Source: Beroe forskalii (Eukaryota; Ctenophora; Nuda; Beroida; Beroidae). From it: a DNA stretch of 64,000 nucleotides. A program made the translations under genes and the position numbers. Positions 7,761 through 49,400 of this stretch are shown here, piece by piece. The notes beneath the pieces are model-generated. The model had not been told where the DNA came from. It ran no database searches and saw only the letters and a list, made by a program, of their open reading frames with translations. Position 1 is the first letter of the stretch; every line of letters begins with the position of its first letter. Where the stretch lies: NCBI GenBank assembly GCA_011033025.1, contig WFMF01000064.1:124001-188000 (forward strand), read 5' to 3'.

Positions 7761-7784
7761 GTTTTGGCATACTGTCTCGGAAAG

Positions 7785-13400: not shown

Positions 13401-16400
13401 ACGCTGATTACACCTTCCCATGTCCCTATTTTCCCTCTTCGCACTCTCTCACTTTCCCACTCCCCGACCTCCCCACTCTCCCGAGTTTCCCACTTTCCCG
13501 CAGTCCCACTTTCCTTATATTTTACCACTTTCCTATTTCCTCATCTCCCCCAGTCCCCCACTTCCTATTTCCCTCTTCCCATATTCCCCCCTCCCCACTT
13601 TGGCACTTTTCCACTTTTCCACGTGCTCATTTCCCACATCCCTACTTCCCCACTCCCCCGCAGTCGGACGAGATGAAGCAAGAGATCCAGCGGAACTGCA
13701 CCTCCAACCAGATGGACTTCAAAGTGCGGTGCACGAACTCCACCGGTCCCCAGGAGCTCTTTAAGAAGACGGGGAGCGAGCAGCAGGCTGCTAATCCCAA
13801 TGGTAAGTGGCACTCCGGGGCTGGGGACGGTGTGACGTCATCAACTCTCCTGTGTAAACCATGATAATGACGTCACTCTCAACCGAGTACACTTCGCTAA
13901 GGAGCTGTATTATCCCATGTATGTAACTTAATTTATATAACTTATTTCGTGCTGCTGTGCACGACTCTAAGTTAAATATAGGCATAACTAAGTTGTGTAG
14001 CTGGTGAGTTGTGAGGTCCCAGGACTCTCTTTCTCTCGGGAGTCTGAGGTGCGGTATTCTTTAAACCCGCGCAGAAATAGCTAAATTAGCTAAATTAGCT
14101 TTATCATCGTCCTGTCACGTACCGCCTAATGAAACCCGCTCCATCATCATAGTTGCTAATGATAAAATTGAGATAGCTGACCGCCGATCTTACGCGCGCT
14201 GTAATAGTTTTAAGTATGAGAGCTGTTATTAAAAGAGGCATCAGAGAGATTTTCCATGTAAAATCCTGAGCCTGTATTCGCTATTACTCTTCACTATCAA
14301 ATGTATAGCCATTTGTGAAGTTAACGCTTGTTCAACACACTGATAAATCAGCATTCAGCTGCCTCCTTCTTTTCCTAAAAGGCCTCCTTTTGCGGGCTAA
14401 ATAGCCCCACATACCAATCAGTTCAAGTCTTAATTTCACTGTTTCAATGTGTATGAAGTTAAAGTAATATTTTCGTGTATTATTGATGAATCGGGACTTA
14501 TTTTTATCATTTTTCTCGTAATTGTCACAGCTTAGCTCCAGTGTGATAGGAGGAGAAACACCATTGAATGAACTAGTATTTTACAAACAGATCAAAACTT
14601 GGCGGTTTTAAAAATCTCCGACATTTTGCACGACAACAGCATTCGGCACAAAGTCTGATGAGCTACGAAAACAAACAATGTGTATCATCCCCCACGCACT
14701 AATTGTACTATATCTCACGTCAAGCTATTCTGCATGAGATTGACACAAAATAAATATATATGTGGGTGTCAAATACGAGAACATTTTGTCGGAAAACTTT
14801 CGTTCATTCTACATTTCTATTCTTGCGCATTCTAATTCACATTGATATACTAATCTATTTCAATTCACACCGATCATGTTCACACAGAGACAAGTATCAG
14901 TTATTAAAAGCGATAGATTGTACTTATATTATACGAGTGGACCTCTGGTAGTTTAAATAGCGTGTATCTGCTGTGAATTGCGTGCACGTACGCCGGTACA
15001 TTCCACATAGCACGTTATCGGTGGAAGTGCGCAGTCTATCACGGTATCACACTGCACACGAGCAACGTCTTACTAGGTCTAACTATCTCGCACTACATCT
15101 CTTTCTCAGTAATTATTCCTTATAAGGAAATAAACTGATTATTTGCCTCCTATTTTGGCATAATCATTACACGGGTACCGTCTAGAGGTCTCACCTATTC
15201 GCTCTCTCACTCTCTCACAGGCATTGGTGGCACTCTGAGTGCCACCTCTCCGTGCCACCTCAATGCCACCTGGCGTGCCTCTTTAATGGTATCGTGTCAT
15301 CAAAGTAATCTCCGCAAGCCGTCAACCTGTGATCTTCCCATATCGTATCGGGGGATGATGGAATGTCGGGCCATTGCGCACAATTACTTTTATCGGATTG
15401 TGTCATTTGCTGTTATGTTTGATATTTAAAACGTTGCAGGAATGTCAAAGATTGGAAGATTGTAGCATTTCGCATTTATAAATCCGTGTGGGGGCCCTTT
15501 TTTATTAACATTTTGCATCGCGTTGAGGGTTTGTTTTTGTGATTTAGCACGATTTAAAGAGTATCGTTTTCTGCAGTTGGTCTTAAAAAGTGATGGATGG
15601 TGTAAACTGTTGAGTCTACGGTTATCCTGGTCTCAGCCATGTCTTCCCAGTCGCAGCTCCTTCCTTGAATTATGTCATCGTCTATATTTAAGTGGCTATT
15701 TATAACGCAGTCAAATTATGTTAGGTAATGCTTGGCTTGTTTTCCAGAAGCAAATTCAATCCATCAGTGCCAGATTTGAACGTTAAAATGTGTTAAATAT
15801 ACTATTAAATCACATGTTAATATTAACTTGGTTGCCAGAGGCAGCGACATAACGTAATTATCGAAAAAAATCGAAAAAATTATTTTATTCAAATTTAAAT
15901 GTCATGTAAAGAGCTAACGTAAAACCCAGATCATTCCAGTGTCCGCTCTGAAAGTTAGATCCGTGCTATTCTTCACAACTTGGTTTACTATAATTATCAG
16001 ATCATGAAAATACGAGGAGTGGTATCTAAAAGCAAATGGTATTCTCGAAAGAGGAGATTATCAGGTTTTCTGCAGGTAATTGAAGAGAACCGTATTGGGA
16101 CAACTTTTAGAGCTCTGGGAACTGGTTAATTAAAGTTCTCCGCTTACCCGATGAGACAGAAGTGTTTCTAGGCCTTCTCTTGCTGTTAATACTTTGACCC
16201 GTGCTTATCGGGTCCATCTTGGAATGCTTCCCAGAGTTTAACCCAAGGGAGGAACCAGGTTGAGGCCCGCAGCCATTAGGATGGAAGACCCGATGAGCCG
16301 ATGAGGCCAGGGTTCATGTATTGTAAACACCGAGAAAAACTTCAGAGTAATTAATTGATTGATTGTTTCAAAAAAGTTCTACACAAAATATTCCTGTGAC

Positions 16401-25400: not shown

Positions 25401-28400
25401 TTGCATGGAGTGACATAAAAATCGTGATGAAACGGCATCACGCTATTGTGAAGCGGCATGGTATGACAGGAAATGTGTGACATGAAGTGACATGGCAGAG
25501 AGTGATATAATGAGTCATGCCAATGGTGTGACATGGCGTGAAATATTCAAGATACAAGGCGTGAAATAGCCTTACATGACAGAGAAATAGGATAGGTTTG
25601 GTGTGCCATGGCCATGTCTTGACATGTTCCATTCCTGTGAGCATAGGCAAAAGCGACATGGCGTCATGGAGATCGTGTTATAGATTCCAATGAATACCCT
25701 TAAATGATTTTTCTGTGAAAAATCTCCGCGAATTATCCACTTGATCACAATAACTTTCCGCAGTAATTTATGTAACATTTACTCGGCCCATCCCACTCGT
25801 ACAGTAAGCTGCTGGTGTTGAAAGGCACTCATAACTATCATAATATGACATGTCATGTTTTTGACTCCTTGATTCGTTGCAAGGCACATGGGCGTGCCTT
25901 CCCATATGTTATAATTATTGCATCACGTAGAATAGGTGCGTCAACATTCTAAACTCAACTCCCTGCTCGATTTATCGGTGGTTCGATGTGCCGTCATTAT
26001 CATGACTTAAGATAGTGAGTTGATGACGAATCCCCAGTATTCCGAGTGCGGGGCAAACGTGAGAAAGGAGAAAGGAGAACACTCTCATGTCATATCAATC
26101 TGAGATTGAAGTTTTCAGATAAACATAATTTTTAACAAAATATTAATCCTGCTGCCTGTCAACTGCTATCAAGCTCACATGTCATGATTAATTTTACTGT
26201 GCATTTGGAATGTGGAGAAAATTACGTAGATTTTAACATATTACATGGCCCTTGGGGAGCTTGACACTTAAACAGCTACATCACAATTGATGAAAATCTA
26301 TCACAATTCTCATTGTTCAAAGAAGAAATTTTAGGTGGGGAGTGGGGACATGGATATTTCCTACTAGGGTGGGGACCATACATCGCTAATGTTACCAGAT
26401 GATCATAGCGTATTCACGATATGTAAATCATGAAACCTGACGACCAGGTGCTAAATCCTTGCTGGAGAGTCGATAAGATTGTCAGGTGTCACGGTATTGA
26501 TAATTTTTATTTACTATTCGTCATACTATTCAATAGATTCATTAAAAATGAATTACGAAGGCGTGGTATCGCTCCTAAAATACTGCGCTAAGTTGTCAGA
26601 GAATGTTTGGTGCCAATAAAGAACTTAATTTGTATGATTCGCTGTAAGAATTTCCCTGATTACGAGGGATCATGAGACCAATCTGAGAATCTCGTGCCTG
26701 GTCGTGATAATTCCGTCCAGAGCCGGTGGGAAATATGTGCGACTCACCTTCATTCCTTCAAGTGTTTTGCAGAATAATTATAGTTAAGAATTCATGTTAG
26801 CAATGCAAAGGAATCCCTGCTATTGAAACGTTACAATATTCACATAGATCAATATCACTACTTTAAATGGCTATGTTTTACTCACAAAGTTATGAATGCA
26901 TATTTTCCTATGGCAGGCAGGAATAACTATGACGAATATCGAAAAATGACAATGGGAGATTTAACCCAACGAAAATACCTACCAGTATCATTAACACGAA
27001 GATTATTGCAAGACCAATTTAGTTGAATTTGAAACGTGCAAGACTTGTTCCTTCCACAGCTCACCTCGATTCTGCCAAGATTATTCTGATAAATCCACTA
27101 ATAACGCCCTACAATATCACAAATTGTCTGTTACAATGAAACATCAAGTGTTTTCTTATCGGAGGTTGACATTTAGGGTGTACGACAGTTCATCTCACAT
27201 TTCATCTCAGGACACTTCGTCTCCCTGTCCTGACCCTAACCAAAACCCTTACCGTAACCGGAACACTAACTCTTACCCATACTCAAACCCTAACCCAGAC
27301 CCTTACATTTGCTTAGAGTTGACATATTGCGCGATAAAGTGTCGTGAGATGAAGTGTCGTGAGATCTGAAATGTCCGTTCCCCGATATTAATTGGACCAA
27401 GACCTCGCTGTTTTAGGTAAAGCTATCGACAACCTCGCGCTGACATGCAGCCAGATAATCCGGAAGAGTATGCCGAAGCTGTGCCTGCCCATCCCCTCCC
27501 TCCACGGACCCGTGTACTTCGACGAGCCCACCCTCGAGTCAGACACCTACTTATTACAGGTACCTTTTCACTGACCCTCGAGTCAGACACCTACTTGTAA
27601 CAGGTACCTTGTTCACTGACCCTCGAGTCAGACACCTACTTGTTACAGGTACCTTGTTCACTGACCCTCGAGTCAGACACCTACTTGTTACAGGTACCTT
27701 GTTCACTGACCCTCGAGTCAGACACCTACTTGTTACAGGTACCTTGTTCACTGACCCTCGAGTCAGACACCTACTTATTACAGGTACCTTGTTCACTGAC
27801 CCTCGAGTCAGACTCCTACTTATTACAGGCACCTTTGTTCAAACTCACCCTCGAGTCAGACTCCTACTTATTACAGGTACCTTGTTCACTGACCTCGAGT
27901 CAGACACAATCTACTTACCTTAACAGGTACCTTGTTCACTGACCCTCGAGTCAGACACCTACTTGTTACAGGTACCTTGTTCACTGACCCTCGAGTCAGA
28001 CACCTACTTGTTACAGGTACCTTGTTCACTGACCCTCGAGTCAGACACCTACTTGTTACAGGTACCTGGTTCACTGACCCTCGAGTCAGACTCCTATTTG
28101 TTACAGGTACCTGGTTCACTGACCCTCGAGAAAGATACCTTCTTATTACAGGTACCTTGTTCACTGACCCTCGAGTCAGACACCTACTTATTACAGGTAC
28201 CTTGTTCACTGACCATCGAGTCAGACTCCTACTTATTACAGGTACCTTGTTCAAATGTTCACTTACCCTCGAGTCAGACTCCTACTTATTACAGGTACCT
28301 TGTTCACTGACCCTCGAGTCAGACACCTACTTATTACAGGTACCTTGTTCACTGACCCTCGAGTCAGACACCTACTTATTACAGGTACCTGGTTGTTTAG

Positions 28401-31400
28401 TGACCCTAGAGTCAGACACCTACTTGTTACAGGTACCTTGTTCACTGACCCTCGAGTCAGACACCTTCTTATTACAGGTACCTTGGTCACTGACCCTAGA
28501 GTCAGACACCTTGTTACAGGAACCTTGTTCACTGACCCTCGAGTCAGACACCTACTTGTAACAGCAGGTACCTTGTTCCCTGAGGAGGAGTCAGAGTTAC
28601 CACAGTAACTCCTACCCTAGTAACTAGTAACCATAGTAACACTCTCCTCGTGCAGGAGTTCCGTGAACGAGAGGAGGAGTCCTCGAGGAGAGGAGTTGTA
28701 ACTCCTACCCTAGTAACTAGTAAGGTAACACTATCCCTGCAGAGTTCCGTGAACGAGAGGAGGAGTCCTCGAGGAGGAGTTACCACAGTAACTCCTACCC
28801 TAGTAACTAGTAACCAGTAACACTCTCCCTCGTGCAGGAGTTCCGTGAACGAGAGGAGGAGTTACCAGAGGAGGAGTTACCACAGTAACACCTACCCTAG
28901 TGACTAGTAACCATAGTAACACTCTCCTCGTGCAGGAGTTCCGTGAACGAGAGGAGGAGTCAGGAGGAGTTACCACAGTAACACCTACCCTAGTAACTAG
29001 TAACCATAGTAACTCTCTCCTCGTGCAGGAGTTCCGTGAACGAGAGGAGGAGTCTCAGAGGAGGAGTTACCACACAGTAACTCCTACCCTAGTAACTAGT
29101 AACCATAGTAACACTCTCCCTCGTGCAGGAGTTCCGTGAACGAGAGGAGGAGTCTCAGAGGAGGAGTTACCACAGTAACTCCTACCCTAGTAACTAGTAA
29201 CCATAGTAACACTCTCCCTCGTGCAGGAGTTCCGTGAACGAGAGGAGGAGTCACCAGAGGAGGAGTTACCACAGTAACTCCTACCCTAGTAACTAGTAAC
29301 CATAGTAACACTCTCCCTCGTGCAGGAGTTCCGTGAACGAGAGGAGGAGTCACCAGAGGAGGAGTTACCACAGTAACTCCTACCCTAGTAACTAGTAACC
29401 ATAGTAACACTAGCCCTCGTACAGGATTTCCGTGAACGAGAGGAGGAGTCACCAGAGGAGGAGTTACCACAGTAACTCCTACCCTAGTAACTAGTAACCA
29501 TAGTAACACTCTCCCTCGTGCAGGAGTTCCGTGAACGAGAGGAGTCCTCGAGGAGGAGTTACCACAGTAACTCCTACCCTAGTAACTAGTAACCATAGTA
29601 ACACTCTTCCTCGTGCAGGAGTTCCGTGAACGAGAGGAGGAGTCAACAGAGGAGGAGTTACCACAGTAACTCCTACCCTAGTAACTAGTAACCATAGTAA
29701 CACTCTCCCTCGTGCAGGAGTTCCGTGAACGAGAGGAGGAGTTACCAGAGGAGGAGTTACCACAGTAACACCTACCCTAGTGACTAGTAACCAAAGTAAC
29801 ACTCTCCGTCGTGCAGGAGTTCCGTGAACGAGAGGAGGAGTCTCCAGAGGAGGAGTTACCACAGTAACTCCTACCCTAGTAACTAGTAACCATAGTAACA
29901 CTCTCCCTCGTGCAGGAGTTCCGTGAACGAGAGGAGGAGTCCCCCGAGGAGGAGTTACCACAGTAACTCCTACCCTAGTAACTAGTAACCATAGTAACAC
30001 TCTCCCTCGTGCAGGAGTTCCGTGAACGAGAGGAGGAGTCTCAGAGGAGGAGTTACCACAGTAACTCCTACCCTAGTAACTAGTAACCATAGTAACACTC
30101 TCCCTCGTGCAGGAGTTCCGTGAACGAGAGGAGGAGTCCCAGAGGAGGAGTTACCACAGTAACTCCTACCCTAGTAACTAGTAACCATAGTAACACTATC
30201 CCTCGTGCAGGAGTTCCGTGAACGAGAGGAGGAGTCCCCCGAGGAGGAGTTACCACAGTAACTCCTACCCTAGTAACTAGTAACCATAGTAACACTATCT
30301 CTCGTGCAGGAGTTCCGTGAACGAGAGGAGGAGTCCCCTGAGGAGGAGTTACCACAGTAACTCCACCTAGTAACTAGTAACCATAGTAACACCTCCTCGT
30401 GCAGGAGTTCCGTGAACGAGAGGAGAAGTCCCCGAGGAGGAGTTACCACAGTAACTCCTACCCTAGTAACTAGTAACCATAGTAACACTCTCCCTCGTGC
30501 AGGAGTTCCGTGAACGAGAGGAGGAGTCCCCAGAGGAGGAGTTACCACAGTAACTCCTACCCTAGTAACTAGTAACCATAGTAACACTATCCCTCGTGCA
30601 GGAGTTCCGTGAACGAGAGGAGGAGTCCCCCGAGGAGGAGTTACCACAGTAACTCCTACCCTAGTAACTAGTAACCATAGTAACACTCTCCCTCGTGCAG
30701 GAGTTCCGTGAACGAGAGGAGGAGTCACCAGAGGAGGAGTTACCACAGTAACTCCTACCCTAGTAACTAGTAACCATAGTAACACTATACCTCGTGCAGG
30801 AGTTCCGTGAACGAGAGGAGGAGTCACCAGAGGAGGAGTTACCACAGTAACTCCTACCCTAGTAACTAGTAACCATAGTAACACTATCCCTCGTGCAGGA
30901 GTTCCGTGAACGAGAGGAGGAGTCACCAGAGGAGGAGTTACCACAGTAACTCCTACCCTAGTAACTAGTAACCATAGTAACACTCTCCCTCGTGCAGGAG
31001 TTCCGTGAACGAGAGGAGGAGTCCCCCGAGGAGGAGTTACCACAGTAACTCCTACCCTAGTAACTAGTAACCATAGTAACACTATCCCTCGTGCAGGAGT
31101 TCCGTGAACGAGAGGAGTTACCAGAGGAGGAGTTACCACAGTAACTCCTACCCTAGTAACTAGTAACCAGAGGAGGAGTTCCGTGAACGAGAGGAGGAGT
31201 CCCCTGAGGAGGAGTTACCACAGTAACTCCTACCCTAGTAACTAGTAACCATAGTAACACTATCCTCGTGCAGGAGGAGTTCCGTGAACGAGGAGGAGTC
31301 ACAGAGGAGGAGTTACCACAGTAACTCTACCCTAGTAACTAGTAACCATAGTAACACTCATCCCTCGTGCAGGAGTTCCGTGAACGAGGAGAGTCCCCAG

Positions 31401-34400
31401 AGGAGGAGTTACCACAGTAACTCCTACCCTAGTAACTAGTAACCATAGTAACACTATCCCTCGTGCAGGAGTTCCGTGAACGAGAGGAGGAGTCCCCAGA
31501 GGAGGAAGAGGAAACTCCGGACGAGGTGCCACTCACGCTCACAAATGTGGACGATTTCCTGAAATTCTTCCCTGAACTCACTGAGTACCAGGTATATTGA
31601 AAGAGGATGGAAGTCTGCCAGAGGTGGAATATTGACTTTCTTAATAATCTTAATATTCACTGTATAATTGTTTTGTTCCAGAACCAAAATCACTGAAAAT
31701 GTTTAAGACAACTATGTTCTGTCAGATTTTAAACAAGCCGTGATTTAGAATTCCAAGTATCTTGTAAGTGAAAACACCTTTTCCCCACTCAGAATAGAAC
31801 AGTGTTACTGGATCACCTGGCTGAGTACAGGAAGGAATACCTGACCCTGGTGCCCCAAACACCCATCAACAGCAACAACGAGCTCTCTGACGAACGATCT
31901 GATACAGGTGAAGTCTTTTAAAAGATGGGAAGAGTAAATTTGCGGACAAATTGGGAATGGAGTTTATTATGAGGAAAATCCCGTTTATTCTTGATTTGAA
32001 TAACTTAGTGAACTAAGTACTTATCATGGAAAACAACAAGAATGTTATTGTACCTTGCACTGCATAATATTTTTTGTACCATTATTCTGGCAATTTCACC
32101 TTCGTAAATCATAACCACCCGCCTTAGGTCCTATCAGTGTAATAGTGAAACCAATCAACGGATCCTCTCAATCCTCGCAATCTCATGTCAGACCTGCCCC
32201 TCTCAAAGCCCCTTCAGACCCCCTCAGAAAACCCAGCTCCTGTGAGAACCCTCCCTCTGGCGGCCCTGTGTGAGTACAAACTCTCTCTCTCTCTGTGTTT
32301 TGACGGTCAATTAGTGACCGATCTCTAAGATGATCTGTCGACTGTCCGCATGTTACCGTCTGACTTGTCCTACACGGACAATTTCCACTGCTGACCACCT
32401 CTCTTATCTGCCTTACCTAACATATAATTTACTCACTTGTTACCATCTCAGTAGGCCAGGGGGCGTATCCAAGAGGCCCTGCCGTAACACCGTGAGGACT
32501 GTGACGGAGTCTCTCAACTCCATGGCGCTGGAGGACAGCAGTAAAGTCCTGTCAGCCACCTACACGCCACCACCAGCCAACGCCGCCAAGCACTTTGTCA
32601 AGGTAAGCTGTGATGCATGGCGAAAAATGGGGACCATCACCCCACCATAGTTGCGAATGGGAAATTTTCTTTAAATTGAGTATTTTGGGTAATTGTCAAC
32701 CGAATTATGTACTGAGCGTAAAATATGCCAGTCTCTGAAAGTTTCGTTCCCCACAACTCTTATTTTTCGCATAGCTGGGTAATGGTGGATAAGATGGGGA
32801 AGGATTTCAGGTGTTAGGCCGATTGCGATATCAAAAGATTGGATTTCACTAATTGAATGATGTGTTATAATTGTCTTATCAAAGGTTGATTATCCCCAGT
32901 TGCACTTAGCAGGCTAATAGTATCCCTGTGAGGGTGGTGGTGTCAGTGATAAGATCCACCCTCCTCGTGACGAGAAGTCACCTGACCACGTCACCTACCA
33001 CGTGATCGCACACCCATCCCATTGGGTGGTGTCAGGGGACAAGCCAATTATCACTCATCTGCCATGGATCAGATATCAGTGGTGAGTAGTATATAAAGCC
33101 GGTGCTTCACTATATTCCATATTCAACGAGTACTTCCTACAGACTACCAGCGACTCTGAAGACTACATACCCTCCTCTACAATGAAGATGCCAAGTTCCC
33201 TCCAGAAGCTGAAGGAGAAGTGTAAGTCCACCCGGCGGTTGAGTGGTGGACCCCCCCTCCTTCCTCCTCCTCCAAGAGGCTGTCCTTCACTCAGCGAGCT
33301 GATTCCGCCCCTCCTGCCTGTACGACACCTCCAACACAGTCAACATGGCCTTTCTCCAGACAGCCCTTCCAGGAAGAACATGCCCAAACCCCTCACTAAG
33401 ACACCTTCCCTAAAACTTGGCAAAAGCCCCGGGACCGTTCTTCCTCCGGCAGACTTCGTCCCGAGCAAAGCCCCCATCCCGAGGACCAGCCTGGATCTTC
33501 TATCTACGAAGCGTCGTCTTTCAACCTGCTCCCCTGCCCCATCCCTGGCTACGTTGTGTGAAGGAGACACTTGCTCCGAGCAAGAAGAGTGTTTGGTGTG
33601 CTCTCTGGCCAGACCCGAGCTCACGAGGCGACATAGTGCTATTATAGGCATCGGATCCTTCAGAAACTTCGATTAAAGAATTGTTTTTAAACATTATAAG
33701 TTTGATATTACTTAATACTTGTGATTAATTTAATTGATTTGAGATTCAAAAAACATTTGTTACAGTAGTCTCACGACATGTTCAGCACAAAACGACCATA
33801 TCTCCTTTGGCACAGGATCCCCTTTGATACTAAAGGATCAAGTTTTCTTGTGATGACGAAGAAACAAACTGCAGTTTTAAACCACCACCTATCTGAGTCA
33901 TAGACTTCATTGAAAGGCCTCTTTTGATTATTTATGCTATGACACTCAAACAGACATGCTATGACAGATAAATAAACACCTGAATGTATTTATTTATCAA
34001 TAACAGAAAATTTTCACAAAAATTTTCACAAAAATCATTTCTCCTGTCAGACTGCCTTCCATAAGCCTGTTCCGATAATCAGTTTATGATTTCCCCTTAA
34101 TTTAAATCATAAAATTATCATAAGAAATGTTGCTGTATCACTCTCAAAGGTCTTGATGGCTGTCATCAGAGTACAGGTGTCCTGATGAATGGCACATTCA
34201 AACTTCACTTTGTGCTGCATCACTTTGAAGTTCTTCTTTGGGGGTATGGTGAAGGGGTAAAGGGACACTTGACCCCCCGACATTACATCCTCCGACACTA
34301 CATCCCCCGACACTTCACCCCCTACTACAGTAATGTAAATCTAAAGAGGAAAGCGGGGGGTCAAACGTCGCAGTTCGACAATTGCTGCGACATTTGACCC

Positions 34401-37400
34401 CCCAACAATATATCCCCCGATGAATAAACATAGATCAAACGCACTGGTCCGCGGCTTGACCAAGGTGTCTAAGTGCAACATTTGACCCCCCCCCCCCGAC
34501 ATCACATCCCCTCTATAGGCACAGTAAACTCCCATGCAAATCATGTCTATCACATTTTTAGTAACTACAGGGGGTCAAGTGTCGGGGGATGTAATGTCGG
34601 GGGGGTCAAGTGTCGGAGGGTCAAATGTCGCACTTTCGGTGAAGGTAATGGCCTCTGTCTTTGACCAACTTGATTCACTGCTACTCTCGAAGCTGTTTTC
34701 TATTTCCTGAGAGAATTCAGCCGAAGCAGTCATACCATAAATACTTGCCTCCATGGATGTGGAAAAGGTGGTTGTGCTTCTTGTGGAGCTTGACTGAGAT
34801 TTTACCACTCCAGTTGTTACCGAGACATCTTAATTATAATTTCGTAAGAGCACGTGAATAATGTTTGTTTGTGCTCCCGTACACAATTAAATTTGAGCTT
34901 GCCAAGAAAATATCAAGAGAAACGAATGCAAACAGGCGAAAAGAGGTACCGTTGCTATGGAAACAAATTTTGTGCACGTGCAGGTTATGATCAGTTCTAT
35001 GCGAGTGCTTTCTATTGCGCAACAACTGTTAAATGCTTTGCTGTAGTTTTTGAAAATTGGACGTTTTCTTAACTTCAAATTCAAGATCTAAAGATGGAGA
35101 ATGGGCATAACTTGAATAACGGAGGATATTTCGAATGGATTGCTTTCATTGTGGCAGAGGTTGGTCGATAATAAAAGTTGAGTCGGTGAAAACAGTAGTA
35201 ACTGCAGTTGCGAAATTAACCGTTAAGGTTACAAGGTGTGCACAATTCAATCGAGTCGAATGTAGGTGTATAACAGATTTCGAAGACAGTTCCTGGCCTG
35301 TGAACAAAACAAAATTATCCAATGTCAGTGTCAGTATGAGAATCAGTTGTCAGAATTAACATCATCTTGCAATCAAAACGGAACGCTGGAACAAAACTCA
35401 CGTGGTTTAGACTTAAGCACGTCTACGACTAACCGACGAATTCGATCTATTTTCCACTCTGCTCCTTCATAAATTTTGTTTTCAATATTTGATTTTTTAA
35501 ACATAACTTTGATGTAATTGGGATTTTTTGATGCGGTAAAACGTATCCAATCAATTCAAATGGCAGTGTTTTAAACTTGCGAACGAGGTGCTGCGTAGCA
35601 GCGCCGAGTGAGCTGTGTTTGCAGGCCCATCGGGCCTGCTAGTCTTTTATAATCTCGGTGCTCCCCTGTCTATTGTCATAGTGGAAGATGACATCAGTGT
35701 AGATATTTGCTGTAAATCTGGGAACCAATTTCCAGAGCTGATCATCGTACCTTGCTCCCCAGTAACTTCCTACTTGTGCGTTCCCAGGTCCGTTCTTTAC
35801 TATCCTCATATTCGTGTCATGGCAGTTGTAAATGTAGTAGAACCCACCATTTTGACCAGATGGTACTAAGTCACCGTCCCTAAAACTTTGCAAAAGCTCA
35901 TGGACGGTTCTTCCTCCGGCAGACTTCGTCCCGAGCAAAGCCCCCATCCCGAGGACCAGGCTGGATCTGCTAGCTACGAAGAGACGCCTCTCAACCTGCC
36001 CCCTTGCCACCTTAAATTCTACAATTTCAGCATGATGGTGTCATATGAAAATTCGCTGTAACCTAGATGACGTGGTTACTTGTTCTGTAGGCTTTATGCT
36101 TACTATATTTCCCTCCAAAATGGTTTACTTCAATGAATGGGCTACTGTCGATCCAATCGATCAAGTTGACCTTCAAAAATAGGGTCTGTGGTGGAAAAAG
36201 TGAGCCTGAATGATGGAACCAGTATTCTAGGAGGGAGGGCTGTGACAACCTTACCGTCATGAACCGCATGATGACTGATGACCTTCAGGCTCAATCAATG
36301 CGGATAAAACCGAAAGACTATCAGAGGAGGGAGAGTTCTACTCTATGTCGTTAAATACGGTTTTTTTTTTATTACAGCGATATTTTTAAAGAAAATTTAC
36401 GTAGGGAGTGCAATAATCAGTCGGAAGCATCGTTCAACTTTTATGATTAATTTTTATCGCCATGTGTGCAAAAACGTTGCGTGCGCACCTTAAATGTTGA
36501 TGATATCAAAATTTTATTCGGTTGTGTGCTGCGCGCGTACTTAAACTTTTTCACGTTTTTTACAACCCCTATTCAGACCTGAAATTGCCATTTTTATCGC
36601 GTACCTTTGAAAAAATATGCGTATTGTTCTCCAGGAGCGAATACAGCATACTTTTCACGATTTTTGCACGTATTCATCAATCCAGGTTCTATTTTAATTT
36701 CAGAACTAAATAAAAAGACTCACTGATTTTTCAATGCAATTATAAGTGACAAGAATTTTCACAATAATTTGTTGATCATTCCTCCTATCAGACTGTCTTC
36801 CATAAGCCTGCTCCAAGAATCAGAGTCACTGTTTCCCCCTTAATTTAAATGATAAACTTGTCCGGGTCAGAGAACGTTGCTGTGTCACTCTCAAAGATCT
36901 TGATTTTCGTCATCAGAGTACAGGTATCCTGAGGAATGGCACCTTCAAACTTCACTTTGTGCTGCATCACTTTGAAGTTCTTCTTTGGAGGTATGGTGAA
37001 GGAAATGGCCTCTGTCTTTGACCAACTTGATTCACTGCTACTCTCGAAGCTGTTTTCTATTTCCTGAGAGAATTCAGCCGAAGCAGTCATACCATAAATA
37101 CTTGCCTCCATGGATGTGGAAAAGGTGGTTGTGCTTCTTGTGGAGCTTGACTGAGATTTTACCACTCCAGTTGTTACCGAGACATCTTTTATAATGGGGC
37201 TGCTCCCCTGTCTATTGTCATAGTGGAAGATGACATCAGTGTAGATATCTGCAGTAAATCTGGGAACCAATTTCCAGAGCTGATCATCGTACCTTGCTCC
37301 CCAGAAACTTCCTACTTGTGCGTTTCCAGGTCCATTCTTGACTATTCTCATATTCGTGTCAACACAGTTGTAAATGTAATAGAACCCATCATTTTTACCA

Positions 37401-40400
37401 GATGGTACCAGCCTGAAGAGTTGGTCATCAAAATATCCACCTTTGTAGACGATCAGTCCATTTTTTTTGGATGAAGCCAGTCTGTAGTATGGAAAAGCCT
37501 CGTTCATCAAGTAGTAGCATCCCGTCTTCCATGGATGAGGGTCAAATTTCCACAGTTGGTTGTCACTTAATTCAAAGTCATATGTTCCAAAATTGCGCCA
37601 TCCTGTGCCATATTGTCTCAGCCTTGATTTGTGGTAGGCCTTGTTGTAGAGAAGAAACTCATTGTTGGCAATAACTAAGTCAGACATTGCTTGTGCAAGC
37701 AATGTGCTTACCAACAGAAGAGTAACACCAATAATTGTCATCTTCTTTCGCTGAGAAAATAGATAACATAAATGTCAAGACATTATTATGGTAAAAGTGG
37801 GAAGTTAGATAAAAGTGGGAAGTTACCTACCAAATTATGTATGTGGGAAAAATATTCGCCCAATTGCACAGTAAATTAGCTGACTGAAGACATTCAAATT
37901 GGTAATGGATCAAAGGAAAAAATTGGTCGCCAGTGTCCAATCAAGCCCCTGATTATGACAGATTGACATAATATTCTGGACTGGTATGTTTGATGAGTGG
38001 GCCTTTTTATATTAGAAAATTTTTGTGCGCTACAATAATGTGAATAATGGATTTGAAACACAATAGCAGTTGGTATTGTTCTTTTGATTCAAATGTTCAG
38101 AGCGACATGAGGCAACAATAGATATTTATGACTCGTATTTGTGTTACACATCATTAAAATAGTATTATATTCATGAAGGCCCGAGAAGAAAATGTCCATG
38201 CAAATTTTAATCACAATAAGTAACCGTAGGTATTCTGTCCCTTTCAATTTCTATCGTTCACAAATATGAAACAATAAATATTATGAAACTTTTCTATTGA
38301 AATAAACATTCAAGTTATGTCTGTGTTGAAATAACTCACATTACAGCTTTGATTGGATGATAGATTGGAAAGTTTTAAAATTATTTGAAATATTTACTGA
38401 CTTCATTCGTACTGGGTCATATATTCCTCTGGTCCGGAACGAGCTTCTTTCTGGATCTTGAAATTTTTCCTTTAATTTCGAAATATGAAATTTTTCCGAG
38501 CCTAAGGGACTAAAGTAAATCAAATTTTAGCAATCATGTGTTTCTTACGGACCTTGACTGAGATTTTACCACTCCGGTTATCACCGAGATTTCTCTTACA
38601 ATGGGGCTGCTCCCCTGTATATTGTCATAGTGGAAGATGGCATCAGTGTAGATAGCAGCTTTAAATCTGGGAACCAATTTTCAGAGCTGATCATTATACC
38701 TTCCTCCCTAGAAAGTTCCTACTTGTGCTTCCCCACATTCTTGATTCTCGTCATATAGTAAGGGCTATACTGAACATGGGTGTGAAATAAATATTGATCT
38801 TGGTTTGAGGGTTGAATCTGTTAGCATATACCAAGGTCAATTATACACCAAAAAGTCTCAAAAATATTCGATGTGGAAACCCAAGTAAACAATTTAATTA
38901 TCAATTTCTTGGAACTTTTACAATCAAATTCATCAATAGCAGCCAGAATGTTAGTTGGCCTTTTTTGACATTTAAAGGCTTCTGTGCAGTGAAATAGGCA
39001 TCCCGGGTGATTGAAAACAGAAAAGAACTCTTTGATATATATATCATTTGCAGGAAAAATAATTCAAATACGACCTTGCATATATCATTTGCAGGAAAAA
39101 TAATTCAAATACGACATTGCATTGAGATTGCACGACCTTTGTGGCCCGGTTGAGACCAGCATAGCCCGGCCTTCTTAACCTCAATATCCAACACAGAAGA
39201 GAAACCAGTCCTACACCAAACTGTAGTACCCATGGCCACTACAAGTTGACATGGACAGATCCAGGCTACGCTGCTTTACTTTTTCTGTGGTCTTGTCGAA
39301 GAGGTGGTGTACGCGCACGCGTAGACGACCTATTATTCCCACTTCCGGGAGGGAGAGGGCCTGCCCTGAAGTTGTCTTACCAACTTGTATTACCCATGGT
39401 GGCTACAAGTTGGTGGCATTAAACAGGTCCTACCTCTTTTTGGTGTTCCTCAGGGATAAATCTTGGTCCCGTTTTCCGAAAAGAGGCCATCAATAAAGGA
39501 TTTCCGCAAAATTTCGGCCATTTCAGACCCCTCCCCCCCCCCCATTGTCCGTAAACGTCCGTAATCCATAAACCCCTCCCTCCCCCTGGACGTCCGCATT
39601 TTTCTTGAAAATTTTTTGGGTCATCATTTTTGGCCCGAAATTTTATGATTTTCTAGTGATATAGCCGCCAAATCGCCCAAAATTTCCATGAATTGCGGAC
39701 GTCCGCATTTGGCCGAACACCCCCCTCCGGCCTCCCCCTACGTCCGCAAACATCCGCATTGACCAGACTCCCTCCTCCCCCCTCGTTGCGGACGTCCTTT
39801 TATGTCGCATCACAAACTTAGCCTCAATACTGCAACACAAGCCATTGAAAACATATTTTTGATACAAAGATGAAGGTGAAACTGTCTAGGATCACCTCAA
39901 ACCAAAATTGAGCACAATGGGATGAATTGGTCGCCCTCTGGGGGATTTTATCTAGAAATTTGGCCTTGTTTTAGCCTCAAATGGACAACGCAAGGTCAAA
40001 AACTCCCAAATTTGAACCGGAGAAATATATATTTAAATATATATTTAAGATTAAATTTCTTTTAGGGGACTTCCATGAAGTTAAAAATGGCTAAAAACTG
40101 CAAAATCCAGGTTTTCAGATTTCGGGACACAATTTTAGCCTCAAGACAGCAACACAAGCCAATGAAAACAGATCTTTGATGATATCTCAGCTTCTATTTG
40201 AGAAAACGTTACTAATGACGTTGAATTGTCGGTTTTGGTAGGATAAAACATGGTTCAAGGTTCTATCTCAATTCGTTCCCGAGATAATACCAAATTTGGC
40301 CATTTTGGCTGTCCATGAGGCCCAATTCGGGAATTTGGGCAGCTTATAATGAGATGGTGATTGGATAACATCAGAACCATGTGACTCGACTGGAAATGAT

Positions 40401-43400
40401 CGGTTTATGAGAGTTATAGAGCATGTTTTTAAGGCTCTATCTCAACCCGTTCCCCCAAATTGGCCATTTTGGCTCAGGTCCATGAGGCCCAATTTGGGCA
40501 GCTTACGAGATGGAGAACATCAGAACCATGTAACTCGACTGGAAATGATCGGTTTATGAGGGTAGAGCATGTTTCTAAGGCTCTATCTCATCCTTTTGCC
40601 GAGATAATTTGATAAATTGTGGACCTTTATGGCTAACTGAGGTGCTCAGAGTAATTACTAGCTTAGTCATCAAGAAATAATCGATTTGTGGTGTAGAAGA
40701 TACTTGATCCCAAGGGCATATGTTGACTTTGCAATCGGCGCCGATCAGCGCTGATCAGCGCTGATCCACTGCCGATCGGCGCTGATCGTTGCTGACCAGG
40801 GTTGATCGATCAGCACTGATCAGCGACACCGCTGATCAGCGACACTGCTGATCAGCGCTTATCGGTGCCGATTGCAAGGTGTGCTCAGCGCTGATCAGCG
40901 CTGATCTGGCCCGATCAGCGCTGATCAGCGACACCGCCGATCAGCGCTGATCACTGATCAGCGCTAATCAGCGCCGATCGGCGGTGAATCGGCGCTGATC
41001 AGCGCTGATCGGCGCCGATTGCAAAGTCAACATGTGCCATCTCAAGTTCTTCACGAGATAATTCAACCTATCGCCATATTGGATACAATTGGGGAAGATC
41101 TCTCCTGCACCGATGAGTGGGGTTTTACCGAGGCCTTGGCCTCGGTCAGAATGGTAAATCTTCGGATTGCCTCATGATTGAAAACCCCTGGGGGCACCAC
41201 TGAGGGCTTAGAAACTTTATTACAATCTTAATAATAAAGTAAATTCACACGTGAATAATGTTTGTGCGGGCGCACACCATTAAATTAGAGCTTGCCAAGG
41301 AAATATCAAGAAAAAGAAAGGCTAAGCCGGGCTTAGTCGCACCGTTGCTATGGATACAGATATTCTGCACGTGCAGATTAATCACGCGCTTTCTTTACGG
41401 TTTAATGCTGTTTTGATTTCGGAGCTTTATAACTTTTGGTGTGATTAGAATTTTTTGATGCGGTAAAAATAATTAAGTTGATTTGAGTTGCGGGGTTTGA
41501 AATTTTCGAACGAGGTGCTGCGTAGCAGCGCCGAGTGAGCTCTGTCTATGCAGGCTCAACGGGCCTGCTAGTCTTAATAATAAAGTAAATTCACACGTGA
41601 ATAATGTTTGTGCGGGCGCACACCATTAAATTTGAGCTTGCCAAGTAAATATCAAGAGAAAGAAAGGCTAAGCCGGGATAAGCCGGGCTTAGTCGCGCCG
41701 TTGCTATGGATACAGATATTCTGCACGTGCAGATTAATCGTGCGCGCGTTCTTTACGGTTTAATGCTGTTTTGATTTTTTGGTGTGATTAAAATTTTTTG
41801 ATGCGGTAAAAATAATTTAGTTGATTTGAGTTGCGGGGTTTGAAATTTGCGAACGAGGTGCTGCGTAGCAGCGCCGAGTGAGCTCTGTGTATGCAGGCCC
41901 AACGGGCCTGCTAGTAAATGAATAAAAACAAATCAATCCCAAAAATAATTACGCATACGTCATCATAAACATTAAACATACCTTCACGCATACATCATAA
42001 TAATATCTTAATTTTGGAGAGATCATTCCACAAAAGAAATCATTGGACTCTGATAATCAAATGAGTCAAAAGTTTTTGATCGAGTTACCGAGAGTCATGG
42101 GTGTTCCGTGATTGTTGATCACTGCGTTTATAACTCTATTAAAGGAGCAGTTGAATGCTTGAAAATTGATCACATACGACCAAATTTGGTCGCACGCAGC
42201 ACACCACCTATCTCAGATTTAACAGTATGCGTAGAGGTAGTATACTCACAACCCCCACAAAACACGATTGGGAACCGGAAAAAATTGGTAGCCAGTGTCC
42301 AATCAAGCCCCTGATTATGACATATTGATTATTGACATAATATTCTGGATTGGTATGTTCGATGACTCCGCCATTTTATTTTAGAAAATTTTGTTGCACA
42401 ACAATAATGCGAATGAAGAATTTGTTACACAATAGCAGTAGGTATTGTTCTTTTAATCCAAATGTTCTTTAGCATCAAGAAAAGCTCTGTGCGACATGGA
42501 GACAATAGATATTTGTAACTCGAATTTGTGTCACACATCGTGAAACCAGTTTTATATTCATGAATGGCTGAGAAGAAAATTTCCATTTCTTGAATTGCAA
42601 ATTTTAATCACAACAAGGTCACCGTATACTGTCATTGCTATTGCGACATATGTGATTATACAGATAATATTTATATTTCCATTTCTATTGTTGACAAATG
42701 ACAAAAAATAAACAATGAACATTATGAAATGATGCTATTGAAATAGACATTCAAGTTATGCCTGGTATGTCTATGTTGAAATAGGTCACATTACAGCGTT
42801 GTTTGGATGTTTGGAAAGGAAATTTTCAAATTTATTTAAAATCTTTATTGACTACATTCATACTGGGTCATATATTCATCTGGTCCGGAACGAACATCTT
42901 TCTGGATCTTGAACATTTGTCTTTAAATTCGAAACCCGAGGATGTTTTTTAAGAGAGGATAGGGGTGATGGAATTTAAGGAACTAAAGTAGGTCAACCAT
43001 GCTCATAATTTTCTAATCATGAACAAAAACAAGATATCCCTTGAAAGATCGAAAAGACATTTTTGTTCATATCTCGATATTTCATGAGCATGAAATATAT
43101 CTTTATTAAACTTCATAGAATTAAAATAACGGGCAATTAAGGTCCCTATCATTCTATCAAGAAAGTATTGTTTAAGAGTTTAAGTGACTCTGATGGACAT
43201 GCGGGGTCTTATTTTGGATGGACCTGTCACTATTTTATTAAACGAGCATGTGTTACCTCAATCGGGCTTTCAATGTCCAAGAATGTGCCTGTATTGTCTC
43301 AAATGGACCTGTGTGGTCTCATTTGGCCCTTTCTATGTCTTAGATTGGCCTGCCATGTCTCAAATGGGCGTCCATTTGTGTTTGTATTGACTCAAATGGA

Positions 43401-46400
43401 CATGTGCTGTCTCAATTAATGGAGTAATGGGCGTACATTGTCACAAATTCGCCAGTTTTGTACAAAAAGGGCCTGTGATGTCTCAAATGGACCTGTTTAG
43501 TGTTTAGTGTTTTCCAAAAGAAGGGCATGTGGCGGAAAAAGTGGGCCTTAAGTCTTAACGACATAAAACTCCTGCATCCTGAAAAAAATACCTTAGCTAT
43601 CCCTCATGCTCCCACTCTGTCTCACTCCCGCTACCCTTGTCCAACTCCCTCAATCCCACTCCCCTACTCCAACTCCCCTTCTGCCTCACTCCCACTTCTC
43701 TACTCCAACTCCCTCTGCCCCACTCCCACTCCCCTTCATGAGCATGGGGTCTGCACGACCCTATCCTCTTCGCGCAGCAGACCCTCATGCCCTCTCTCTG
43801 CCTCACTCCCACTGACCCACTCCTCCTGTCTCACTCCCACTCCCTCTCACTCCCTCTCTGTATCGCTCCCACTCCCCCGCTGTCTCACTCCCACTCCCAC
43901 TCCCCCGCTGTCCCAATCCCTCCCACTCCCACTCCCCCGCTGTCCCACTCCCCCGCTGTCCCACTCCCTCTTACTCCCACTCCCTCTAACTCCCACTCCC
44001 TCTAACTCCCACACCCTCTCACTCCCACTCCCCCTCTGTCCCACTCCCTCTAACTCCCACTCCCCCGCTGTCCCACTCCCTCTGTCCCACTCCCTCTAAC
44101 TCCCACTCCCCTAACTCCCACTCCCTCCCACTCCCTCTAACTCCCACTCCATCTAACTCCCACTCCCTCTAACTCCCACTCCCTCTAACTCCCACTCCCT
44201 ATAACTCCCACTCCCTCTAACTCCCACTCCCTCCCATCCCACTCCCCCGCTGTCCCACTCCCTCTAACTCCCACTCCCTCTAACTCCCACTCCCTGTCAC
44301 TCACTGTCACTCCCACTCCCTCTAACTCCCACTCCCTCTAACTCCCACTCCCTCTAACTCCCACTCCCTCTAACTCCCACTCCCTCCCATCCCACCCCCC
44401 GCTGTCCCACTCCCTCTAACTCCCACTCCCTCTAACTCCCACTCCCTGTCACTCACTGTCACTCCCTCTAACTCCCACTCCCTCTAACTCCCTCTAACTC
44501 CCACTCCCTCCCACTCCCACTCCCCCGCTGTCCCACTCCCTCTAACTCCCACTCGCCCAGGTTTCTGCTCCGGACATGTACTCGCACCGGCCTCCCCACT
44601 ATCTGGAGCAGCTGTACGACCCCATCCCCTCAGTTCAGCGGACCCTCATGCTCCTGGACATCGCCAGAGCTGTCCATCCCGAGACGCTGATCAACAGGGT
44701 CGCCTACGATCAGGTTAACTGATACTTAACTCAATTTCAAGTTAGTTTCAAAGAACCAGTCGAATGCAACAGATTATTGCAATATTTCGGATTTCCTGCT
44801 CATTTTGAGGTAACAAAATCATTCAACAGATATTTAAACCAACTCACGTGGCATTTTCATGTTATAGTACATCAGAACATGAAGTTTTATTTGGATTTAG
44901 CCTGACAAGAAGGTGATAAAAACATCTCAATGACCACATCACCAGGACGACCTGGTTAAGACGGAGGACTCGTCGCAGCGAGCGCTGAGCAACGTCAAGT
45001 GGGACGCCGGACTGCGGAGGTGTAAGATCCTGCCGTCCATCCCCCAAACTAGGATCAGTGCTGACCACCATGCTATCCCCACGGCAGGGGTGCTGACCGA
45101 CGAGAACTCCAGTGGAACTGTCAACATCCCAATCTTACAGTTCGAATCAAGATTTGAATGTGGAAACCTCCGGAAGGCTGTTCAAGTAAGAGTGTACACT
45201 TTACTTAGTTACTGGTTGTCATGATGGAATCAATGGCTGAAATTGGATGGTTTCTAAAAATTATGTTATCCGGCGTCAGATAATTGTTGACAAAGGGCTT
45301 CATTTATTCCATTTGGCTGTGGAATTCGAAAATCGAAACTGTGAAATTTGATTGTTAACTAGCAAGGTAGGTACTCTGGTAGCAAAATATTAACCGATGG
45401 AAACTCCAATCACTCCCTTTTGTTGCAGTGTATGATGAGATTGGGTTAAACTTGGTTTGTGCTGAGAAACACAATAAACCAACATTTGACATGATAGCTG
45501 TTCGGAGTTGGGAATAATAGTTGCCTAATATGAGCATTTTAACTTTATCAGAATAGTAGAGTAAACAAATGTGTTATCATGAACCCTCCCCACTCCCCAG
45601 TCTCATCACTCCTCTAAATCATCTGACAAGTGACACACACGTCCTCCCCAGGTCCGTATATTCGAGTACGATCTAGTATTAAATTCAGACATAGGCTCCT
45701 CCCGTCACCACCAGTGGTTCTACTTCGAGGTACAGAACATGGTCGCTGACTTCCCCTACCGCTTCAACATCATCAACTGCGAAAAAAGCTGCTCCTCCTT
45801 CACCCAAGGTACAGTACTAGCAATGATCGGCCTCAGTTTGGCCGAAAATTAATATTTTATCTCCAAGGACCCGGCCTCGGTCGATCAATGGAGAGTTTTA
45901 CCTTTCATCGCTTGACTCCATTGTCGACACCCGAAGACGAAATTTCGGATGGGTTCAGGTGGGTTTGGATGGTTTCGGGGTGGTACGGGAGGTATCGAGG
46001 CTACATCTGGTGGGTTTGGGGTAGGTTTGGGTGGATTTGAGGGTTTCGGGTGGTTCCTGCTTTTAGTATCGACCCTATCGATGTTAACTTCATCCCAAGA
46101 TGGAATCTAGACAAATGAACATCTAGGAATAGGATTCTGGAATTATAATCCTCGGCTGAAAGTTGTGCCAATGTGTCCGATGCTTCGCGGAAATCATTTG
46201 AAATCATTTCTAAGAAAATGTTGCAAAAATATCTGGTATATACCTCCAATCGTTCCAACTGTCAAACTAGTCGGTTGCTTCTTTCTACTAATTGGTAAGC
46301 AGTGAGACATGAGCTGAAACATTCTCTCCTCCCTGTCAGGAATGCAGCCTCTGCTCTACTCCTCTCACGACGCTTTGTCTAACGGCACTGGATGGCAGCG

Positions 46401-49400
46401 GAGTGGGAAGAGGATATGTTACTACAAGAACAACTTCATCAGGAAGCCTTCAGAGGACTCTGATAAGAGACTCACTTGAGTGCTAATTCATATGTCCGTT
46501 GGAACTTTTAAGTCATGGCATTTTGCACTTATAAACTAGCTAATGCTCTAATAGCTTGGATGTTCTTATCTGGTTCCTCAATCGAATGTGAGTTGATTTC
46601 TTGCTTTACACACCCTTGTTAGATCACGTTCCACTAACCCTGAACCGCAAGTGCCTCCCCCAGATAAGATCTACACGTCTGGGAGGGCGGGGAACTCAGC
46701 CCAGAACATGTACACGCTGACATACACCATCTGCTTTCCCCACTCCAACGATACCTGTTACATCGCCTACCACTACCCCTACTCCTACTCAACGCTACAG
46801 GTACGATATGCCACTCCCCCTATATCTCTTTCCCACTCCCCCTCTACCTCACTCCCACTCCCCCTCTTCCCCACTCCAACGATACCTGTTACATCGCCTA
46901 CCACTACCCCTACTCCTACTCCACACTACAGGTACGATATGCCACTCCCCCTATATCTCATTCCCAATCCCCCTCTACCTCACTCCCACTCCCCCTCTTT
47001 CCCCACTCCAACGACACCTGTTACATCGCCTACCACTACCCCTACTCCTACTCCACACTACAGGTAAGTTATGACTGCAACCAATCGGTAATGAGCTTTT
47101 AAACTGAGTGTTAAGCAATTCTTCTGATATCTGTCTCACTCTAACCCCCACACTTCATCCCCACTATAGCGCTCCCCCTCTATCTCACTGCCAGCCCCGT
47201 CTATGTCACTCCCACTCCGCCTCACCTCACTCCCCCTCCGTCTCACCCCCATTCCCTTCTGTCTCATCCCCCCTCCCCCCTCTGTCTCACTCCCACTTCC
47301 CCTCACTCCCACTCCCACTCTCAACAACCACTCCTACCCTGTGTCACTCCCATTTCCCTCTCACCCCCGATCCCCATTCTACCTCATCCCCGCTCCCCTC
47401 TGTCCCACTCTTAGTCCCCCTCTGTTTCACTCCCACCCCCCCCTGTTTCATCCCCACTCCCACTCTGTTTCACTCCCACCCCCCTGTTTCACCCCCACTC
47501 CCGCCTCTGTCTCACTCCCACCCCCCCTCTGTCTCACTCCCACTCCCTCTACCTCCCAACCCCTCTGTCACCCCACTCCCCCCTCTGCCCCACTCCCAAT
47601 CCCCTCATTCCCCTCTTCCCCCAGGCCCACTCCCACTCCCCCTGTCTCACTCCACCCCCTCACTCCCCTACCCCTCTGTCTCACTCCCACTCCCCTCACT
47701 CCACTCCCCCCCTCTGTCTCACTCCCCTTCACTCCCACTCCCCCTCTGTCTCACTCCCACTCCCGCCTCTGTCTCACTCCCACTCACGCCTCTGTCTCAC
47801 CCTCACTCCCCCCTCTGCCCCACTCCCACTCCCCCTCACTCCCACTCCCGCCTCTGTCTCACCCTCACTCCAGCCTCTGTCTCACCCTCACTCCCCCCTC
47901 TGTCTCACTCCCACTCCCACTCTGTCTCACCCTCACTCCCCCCTCTGCCCCACTCCCCCTCATTCCCCCTCTTCCCTCAGGACCACCTGCTGGAAGTGCA
48001 GCACCTGCACGGCGGCAGTTCCATGTTGCGCCGGCAGACCTTGTGTTACTCGCTCTCCCTCTATTCACTCTTAGCCCCCTCTGTGTCCCTCCCACTCCCC
48101 CCGTTGCCCCACTCCCACTCCCCCTCTGTCTCACTCCCACTCCCCCTATGTCTCACTCCCACTCCCCCCTCTGCCCCACTCCCACTCCCCCTCATTTCCC
48201 CTCTTCCCTCAGGCCCACCTGCTGGAAGTGCAGCACCTGCACGGCGTCAGTTCCATGTTACGCCGGCAGACCCTGTGTTACTCGTTGGGTGGTAACCCGG
48301 TGGATGTCCTGACCATCACTCAGTTCTCTACCCCCACCAGCAAAGTCTCCGTTACCGCCATGAGTACGTGATTTCCTGGTGGATCCCGACCCTGGAATCT
48401 GTTTGGATTCTCGTATTGGAGAATATTCCATCATGTTGTAGAATGTTACCGATAACTTGATTCTCGAATTTTATCTGCGTATATCAGATGTTTTTCGGTG
48501 AAAAACGGCAAACATCTAGACTCATTTCTTCATTTCCGGCGGAAAATGGCAATTTTACGTCCGTATGTTTCCTGTTCAAACCAACCAGTAATTACTCAAT
48601 CGTGATTTCAGGGCATGGACCAATGTAAACTGAAAGTCATTGAAATGAGCTGATTTGTAAATCGGTCCTCAGTTCATTCCAACTTCAACCCACGGCTTTC
48701 CTTTGTTCAATTTAGTGAGAGGCAATTTTACTGGTTGGACATCCCTAATCCACAGTACAATTGCTTACAAAATCTCTAGAACGTTCCTTCCTCCTTCAGA
48801 CGACAGAGACTATGTGGTGCTATCAGCCCGGGTGCACCCTGGTGAATCCAACTCCAGTTGGATCATGAAGGGTGCCATCAACTTCCTCCTCTCTGACAAC
48901 GAGAAAGCTGTCCAGCTGAGGAACAAGTTCATATTCAAGGTACTCGGCCAATGACAGTCCGTTGACTCAATGTTAAGTGATCAACGTTAGGTGTTGGCTG
49001 GCTTGCTGCTGTCCATAGGTACTAACATCGAATAACAGTTGAATCATGACGAACATCAGACCGTTAGAATACTTGTATAATGTATATTACTGAATTGCCT
49101 CTTACTCAACATAAGACCCATCCCTTATTCCGCAGATTGTTCCCATGTTGAACCCTGACGGAGTCATCAACGGCTCACACCGGTGTTCACTCCTCGGTGT
49201 GGACATGAACCGGCAGTGGATCAATCCACACCCACAACTCTACCCCTCCCTCTACAATATGAAGGGAATGGTGAGTTTGAGGAGTCCCTCGGATTCCAGA
49301 AAAAGCGTGGTATTAAAACTTCCCCATTCAAACTTCTCTATTTGAGCTTGTCTATTTTAGCTTCCTACCTGAACTTCCATTTCATTGGTAAGAATGAGAA

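Follow-up and report, generated by a model that had tools for sequence, protein, structure and literature searches.

The CCP1 locus and its array-filled intron

The analysed stretch of DNA, 64,000 nucleotides of the genome of the ctenophore Beroe forskalii (contig WFMF01000064.1, positions 124,001 to 188,000, hereafter the window), carries a CCP1 (CCP1/AGTPBP1-like) gene in which one intron (27560..31468, plus strand, 3,909 bp, GT...AG) is filled almost entirely by two minisatellites, each derived from the splice junction at its own end of the intron. The identity of the gene, proposed in an earlier note on this DNA, is supported by a match of the exon-joined window protein to a CCP1-like protein of Bolinopsis microptera (P0001) with 76% identity over 99% of the length as well as by a Pfam hit to the M14 peptidase family (PF00246, 3.4e-07) above the cut-off. 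The remaining 119 matches among the best 120 of 2,499 are 36-55% identical over 41-98%, and the CCP N-terminal domain (PF18027) is hit on one exon piece at 2.3e-04, slightly below the cut-off. Exons were located by mapping P0001 back onto the window, which left its first 67 residues unplaced, and 20 GT-AG introns were defined.

The exon upstream of the array-filled intron (27417..27559, plus strand, "exon 8" of the earlier note) corresponds to residues 341-389 of P0001 with 86% identity in tblastn, and the downstream exon (31469..31591, plus strand, "exon 9") was likewise placed by mapping of the P0001 protein; the boundaries of both were read from the sequence. Tandem Repeats Finder (TRF) calls array 1 at 27530..28583 (45 bp x 23.0, 89% match) and array 2 at 28594..31506 (99 bp x 30.0, 90% match), both on the plus strand and separated by only 10 bp. 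The earlier description of an intron of about 3.9 kb consisting of little else than two arrays, with outer coordinates 27531..31505, is thus reproduced to within 1 bp. Array 1 starts within the exon ending at 27559 and therefore overlaps exon end and donor. Its unit comprises 30 bp of exon end plus 15 bp of donor side, with the first copy being the real exon end and donor, while the array 2 unit comprises 63 bp of acceptor side plus 36 bp of exon start, with the last copy being the real acceptor and exon start. Accordingly, the derivation of each array from its own junction, also stated in the note, holds. Self-similarity of the junctions within the intron reaches 37.5 for the donor and 40.0 for the acceptor (maximum 40), compared to maxima of 10.5 and 10.0 over 20 shuffles.

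The roughly 50 extra splice-site copies in cis reported before were recovered as 23 donor and 30 acceptor copies. GT is present in 21 of the 23 donor copies, the other two reading GC and GA; an in-register AG is found in 29 of the 30 acceptor copies, with a one-base offset in the remaining copy, and one of the 29 has lost its pyrimidine tract. The previous statement that both periods are multiples of three applies to the modal units (45 and 99 bp) but not to the individual ones, which vary from 42 to 53 bp in array 1 (44 bp for the first donor unit) and from 79 to 101 bp in array 2; elsewhere in this genome, the periods of junction arrays include 131, 34, 32 and 49. Divergence amounts to 5.2% in the exonic versus 6.4% in the intronic part of array 1, and to 9.6% versus 5.3% in array 2. 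Hence, the exonic part of the decoys is kept no better than the intronic part, and there is no sign of coding constraint. Neighbouring copies are barely more similar to each other than distant ones, which fits repeated exchange within the array.

Long arrays are difficult to assemble, and array length may be wrong; that the arrays themselves are an assembly artefact is nevertheless hardly credible. The copies bear many different variants, the window is free of any N, cases of the same kind with two and three copies exist elsewhere, and the array 2 unit was found at a single place in the assembly: a 120-base query from it gave at least 31 matches across the assembly, all inside array 2. On the basis of the same search, introner-like elements were rejected as a source of the array.

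Reading frames and the outermost splice sites

The joint between the two exons reads YLLQ|EFRER in the window and YLLQ|EYK in Bolinopsis, without any insert at the joint, and the acidic stretch that follows has a few more residues in the window than in Bolinopsis. The Bolinopsis protein thus fits the outermost donor (27560..27561, plus strand) being joined to the outermost acceptor (31467..31468, plus strand). The same pair is singled out by the reading frames. Only donor 1 among the 23 leaves an open frame, as all later donors run into a stop at residue 51, located right after the first array 1 copy with its 44-bp unit and before any acceptor; only the last of the 30 acceptors gives an open frame when joined to donor 1. 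With one productive donor and one productive acceptor, the approximately 50 inner copies look like decoys, intact in appearance and backed by stops, and the frame analysis would exclude productive use of inner donors. A coding reading of the arrays was rejected, because no open frame extends beyond the first copy.

Recurrence in other introns of the same genome

Junction copies were sought in 42 introns of seven genes (CCP1, POLR1C, a receptor-type PTP, ASH2L, SSU72, MED4 and a serpin beside CCP1), drawn from the window and 17 loci (denoted L below) of the same genome, two of them flanking the window and 15 chosen by contig number, in an assembly of 216 Mb and 1,134 contigs. Genes beyond CCP1 were recognised by open frames, Pfam, PDB sequences and homologues, and their boundaries were set by eye, with alternatives existing for ASH2L-i3 and MED4-i2. 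Four further loci were viewed for open frames and repeats only, and no gene was counted from them. The junction-copy threshold of 16 was set after the CCP1 introns had been scored; the SSU72-i1 donor and the CCP1-i11 acceptor lie just below it (15.5 each). The gene set is non-blind, as the repeats in L022 were noticed before POLR1C was recognised there. Left out of the intron count were three CCP1 joints without GT donor, the last SSU72 joint, the POLR1C 5' acceptor (17.5 versus 9.5), which is unpaired with any donor, and, for want of recognised adjacent exons, chitinase, THEG, kringle, cathepsin, oxidoreductase and retroelement loci.

Copies of their own junctions were found in 5 of the 42 introns, namely donor copies in three and acceptor copies in five. 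Amplification at both ends of one intron, as first noted for CCP1, recurs in that three introns (two in CCP1, one in POLR1C) show it; two have acceptor copies only (PTP, ASH2L), none donor copies only, and 37 neither. Copies are carried by four of the eight introns above 1 kb and by one of the 34 shorter ones.

The other CCP1 intron in which both own junctions are copied (46801..48212, plus strand) scores 35.0 for donor as well as acceptor, with shuffles reaching at most 11.0 and 13.0. At its donor end, repeat calls, P0001 mapping and junction self-similarity delimit an exon end plus donor array at 46734..47073 (plus strand, 131 bp x 2.6, three junction copies), all three copies of which start in CCCCACTCC, a sequence common to the exon and the intronic pyrimidine repeats. 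Decoy junction copies at its acceptor end (47618..48240, plus strand) have their exonic parts from 47625, with only 6 exonic nt, and from 47981, the real exon starting at 48213; depending on how the truncated copy is counted, the donor to acceptor ratio is 3:3 or 3:2. The third both-ended case, in POLR1C (L022:2453-4149), has 46 donor copies of 34 bp and two acceptor copies of 32 bp, the latter duplication showing TCAC at the repeat edges. Here, GT is kept in 43 of the 46 donor copies, of which one keeps the frame, as does one of the two acceptors, and the outermost joint DWLPGGVRF is present in two relatives with 67% identity, P0121 and P0122, whose contigs are about 1.1 kb long. On the acceptor side only, copies occur in the receptor-type PTP (L019:6200-7120, minus strand), where 1 of 11 acceptors is open, and in ASH2L (L020:4960-5160, minus strand), where 2 of 6 acceptor-like sites are.

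Some observations at these and related loci stand apart from the counts. Just 5' of the POLR1C start codon, an array of 77 bp x 2.9 (L022:1194-1414) holds an acceptor-like site and could be an amplified trans-splice or 5' untranslated region acceptor. In the first SSU72 intron (L021:7890-8300), the final stretch of the preceding exon (CTCAAGAAG) recurs at the intron end, the donor score being 15.5 versus 11.0 in shuffles. A donor-like array, ATACTG|GTTAGT, directly follows a coding-like stretch without Pfam match at L028:8940-9130 (minus strand); as an unproven candidate, it was excluded from the counts. Arrays with donor-like words in L014, L023 and L009 were rejected, no adjoining coding exon being recognised there.

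Pairing of amplified ends

In a genome where TRF coverage reaches 19.2% of the 233,218 bases sampled, arrays might lie on junctions, and pairs of them at both ends of an intron, by neutral coincidence. The count of junction arrays called by TRF alone, which is not above expectation, would agree with this explanation. The pairing, on the other hand, argues against it: the association of the two ends over the 42 introns (3/42 both-ended) gives a Fisher p of 0.00087, which becomes 0.0066 with a threshold of 15 instead of 16 and 0.0073 without the reported intron, and random placement of TRF units in introns yields two or more both-end introns with p 0.007. When junction copies are defined by similarity, with collapsed lengths entered by hand, 8 are observed versus 2.5 expected (p 0.0014); without the reported intron these figures are 6 versus 2.3 (p 0.016) for copies and 2 versus 0.09 (p 0.003) for pairs. 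Coincidence is therefore considered unlikely. As the gene set is small and non-blind, the claim is firm for recurrence of junction-derived copies in this genome, fairly confident for pairing of amplified ends beyond chance, and only weak for a targeting of junctions by the amplification, junctions being at most modestly over-represented.

Fate of the inner copies

Recursive splice sites are characterised by an AG|GT zero-length exon with a pyrimidine tract. The array 1 junctions might act as such ratchet points, or innermost pairs might be removed in turn, so that the long intron would leave stepwise. AG directly abuts GT in 21 of the 23 array 1 units (counted with the pyrimidine tract unscored), and the core of nine positions around CAG|GTACCT shows 2 changes in 198 cells over the 22 decoys, fewer than the rest of the unit, the copies being non-independent. 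For nested removal, only 88 bp separate the innermost donor (28568) from the first acceptor (28655), a spacing like that of a short intron. However, AG|GT arises with any donor of the usual exon consensus and is thus no independent sign, and the 45-bp unit is below the shortest of the 42 introns (104 bp). Strict nested removal would call for roughly balanced numbers of donor and acceptor copies, but these stand at 23:30 in CCP1 27560-31468 and 46:2 in POLR1C (and 3:3 or 3:2 in CCP1 46801-48212); with the former two ratios, it would leave stop-bearing remnants. Given that the open frame results solely from the outermost pair in both CCP1 and POLR1C, nested or stepwise removal of the array, which the earlier note had raised, finds no support and appears improbable.

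Alternatively, selection might keep the decoys as redundant or poison splice sites tuning CCP1 output via nonsense-mediated decay. All decoys lead to a stop, and they retain GT in 20 of 22 and in-register AG in 28 of 29 cases. As the copies are only about 5-10% diverged, though, intact sites are expected without selection, and the pattern is also seen in the unrelated POLR1C, PTP and ASH2L, which makes this explanation very improbable.

Choice of the outermost sites, left as a question by the earlier note, may have an ordinary answer. Human libraries of tandem donors show a preference for whichever of two equal donors comes first, and acceptors are without order preference, according to the covered portion of the source (PMC6783452). 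In the present geometry, the outermost donor comes first, and among the acceptors it is the outermost that lies closest to the donor of its own exon, as exon definition requires. Exon definition combined with first-donor preference is hence a sufficient candidate for how these sites might be chosen.

Proposed origin of paired junction arrays

Probably, the paired junction minisatellites of the CCP1 intron arose by tandem duplication and amplification, with the outermost sites being spliced and the inner copies being removed as intron. Ordinary tandem duplication in DNA with 19% tandem repeats, together with choice of the outermost sites, explains most of the pattern. In the first step, a pre-existing short intron would have acquired boundary-spanning tandem duplications through microhomology-mediated slippage or end-joining; unequal exchange or slippage would then, judging from the copies, have raised their number to 23 and 30. 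As the frame analysis and the protein of a relative suggest, the original outermost donor and acceptor would continue to make the mRNA, with the inner copies leaving as intron. The outermost sites would win because each lies opposite the second splice site of the exon to which it belongs (exon definition), and because among equal donors the leading one tends to be taken. Inner copies, if used, would lead to premature stops. Finally, lengthening of one end may shift recognition to exon definition, leaving the other end free to amplify, which would account for amplified ends occurring in pairs. For the duplication step, the shared starts in CCCCACTCC and the TCAC edges suggest that tandem duplication was mediated by microhomology, with unequal exchange coming afterwards.

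Several points weigh against this origin. Use of the outermost sites is inferred from reading frames and the protein of a relative, exon definition in ctenophores is an assumption here, and freeing of the second end by it is put forward as a hypothesis. Microhomology was examined in two introns (CCP1 46801-48212 and POLR1C). In POLR1C, the relative P0123 is without the stretch preceding the joint and neither confirms nor contradicts it; in ASH2L, one inner acceptor keeps the frame too. Under random founder-unit placement, the 5 junction arrays called by TRF do not significantly exceed the 2.78 expected (p 0.12), an expectation raised by entering array 1 at period 368. Among 74 arrays of 20-200 bp, there is no significant excess of splice motifs over random segments, neither for donors (10 versus 7.0, p 0.17) nor for acceptors (6 versus 3.8, p 0.17), and the 31 arrays of at least four copies show donor motifs in 3 versus 3.2 and acceptor motifs in 0 versus 1.7.

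Hairpin-driven amplification was rejected as a general cause. Measured against shuffled units repeated in tandem, only two of seven junction units stand out, that of 99 bp at z -3.1 and that of 131 bp at z -2.1; the array 1 unit has z -0.6, and the mean over 45 arrays is -0.3 with 7 below -2. Larger z values (-11.7 for an array 2 piece, -6.2 for an array 1 piece) stem from shuffles that destroy the periodicity.

A more far-reaching form of the proposal is possible but doubtful: the first junction duplication would lengthen a ctenophore intron, bring it under exon definition and thereby license both junctions to amplify without limit, with the outermost copies as sole functional sites and removal perhaps proceeding partly by recursive use of inner copies. 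If this self-licensing growth were true, paired junction minisatellites would constitute a genome-wide class of introns. Independently thereof, conserved genes of a single animal here offer natural introns in which tens of donors and acceptors, nearly identical to each other, coexist in cis. These make testable how the spliceosome selects one site from several equal ones, whether an early-branching animal lineage uses exon definition, and whether an intron's own junctions can be the source of its growth. For annotation, they serve as a warning that repeat masking and short reads may mishandle such junctions.

Comparison with known systems

Published cases are cited here from the covered portions of the respective papers. 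The human IFI6 (6-16) gene has a minisatellite supplying multiple splice donors (Turri, Cuin and Porter 1995, as cited in PMC4526556; also cited in PMC2572611 and PMC3618361), and splicing is reported to start also from two repeat units lying downstream, so that three mRNA species result (PMC4526556). Array 1 resembles it in that its units are potential donors, with GT in 21 of 23 copies, and array 1 lies over exon end and donor. In contrast, IFI6 is a single case with inner donors reportedly in use, whereas here both ends, up to 46 and 30 copies, and several genes are involved, and inner CCP1 and POLR1C donors lead to stops. On the acceptor side, a tandem duplication across an intron-exon boundary is described for potato RdRp (PMC4974935). 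It likewise turns exonic sequence intronic by duplication over the acceptor junction, but a single duplication made a new intron there, while many copies extend an existing one here. Intron gain via tandem duplication of an AGGT-containing exon has been described as well (Rogers 1989; ATP2A1; multiple 24-bp duplications in fission yeast; PMC4974935). These repeat copies also hold splice signals, the intron of one fission yeast gene spanning four copies, yet in those cases the intron was created from exon. Each CCP1 unit includes intronic sequence, 15 bp in array 1 and 63 bp in array 2, and these two sequences differ; hence, the intron existed before the amplification, and gain by tandem duplication of an exon was dismissed, as the units contain pre-existing intronic sequence from both ends.

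Consequently, the hint in the earlier note that such amplification may be an undescribed mode of intron growth is not supported, the IFI6 donor minisatellite and the acceptor-crossing potato duplication being already known; the two-ended, many-copy, recurrent form was found in no open-licence paper among the matches listed, as judged by titles and abstract openings. For the ctenophore Hormiphora, a genome with 13% tandem repeats and nested intronic genes has been reported, and the covered portions of that paper hold nothing on junction arrays (PMC8527503).

Further features of the window and other loci

Four joints implied by homology lack a GT donor. Three lie in the window (10493-10741, 46463-46663 and 52706-54694) and one at L021:9178-9343; read with their AG acceptor, they would start with TACCTA, ATAAGA, GAAAGG and ATTTGT. 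Variant donors, errors in the sequence or wrongly set joints could account for them. Pyrimidine-rich minisatellites are located 5' of several CCP1 acceptors (window 13411-13654, 43829-44554, 47233-48191 and 49666-50005) and give the appearance of an amplified polypyrimidine tract. Within the CCP1 intron 32603-44560, a long open frame at 33086-33673, with a similar shorter one at 35856-36032, might represent an alternative exon or a piece that was duplicated.

Across the left edge of the window, one 40-bp array of nearly 2.9 kb (window 1-176, L009:7290-10000), the minus-strand unit of which holds ACACAGTAAGTCC, has no recognised adjoining coding exon. Tandem arrays at 1490-5075 are seemingly arranged as a large inverted repeat, as the 121-bp array at 2488-3124 scores 414 in alignment with the reverse complement of 3557-4071 versus 29 in direct orientation. 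Additionally, reverse-transcriptase-like open frames of retroelements were recognised by eye at window 7149-8754 and in L024 and L026.

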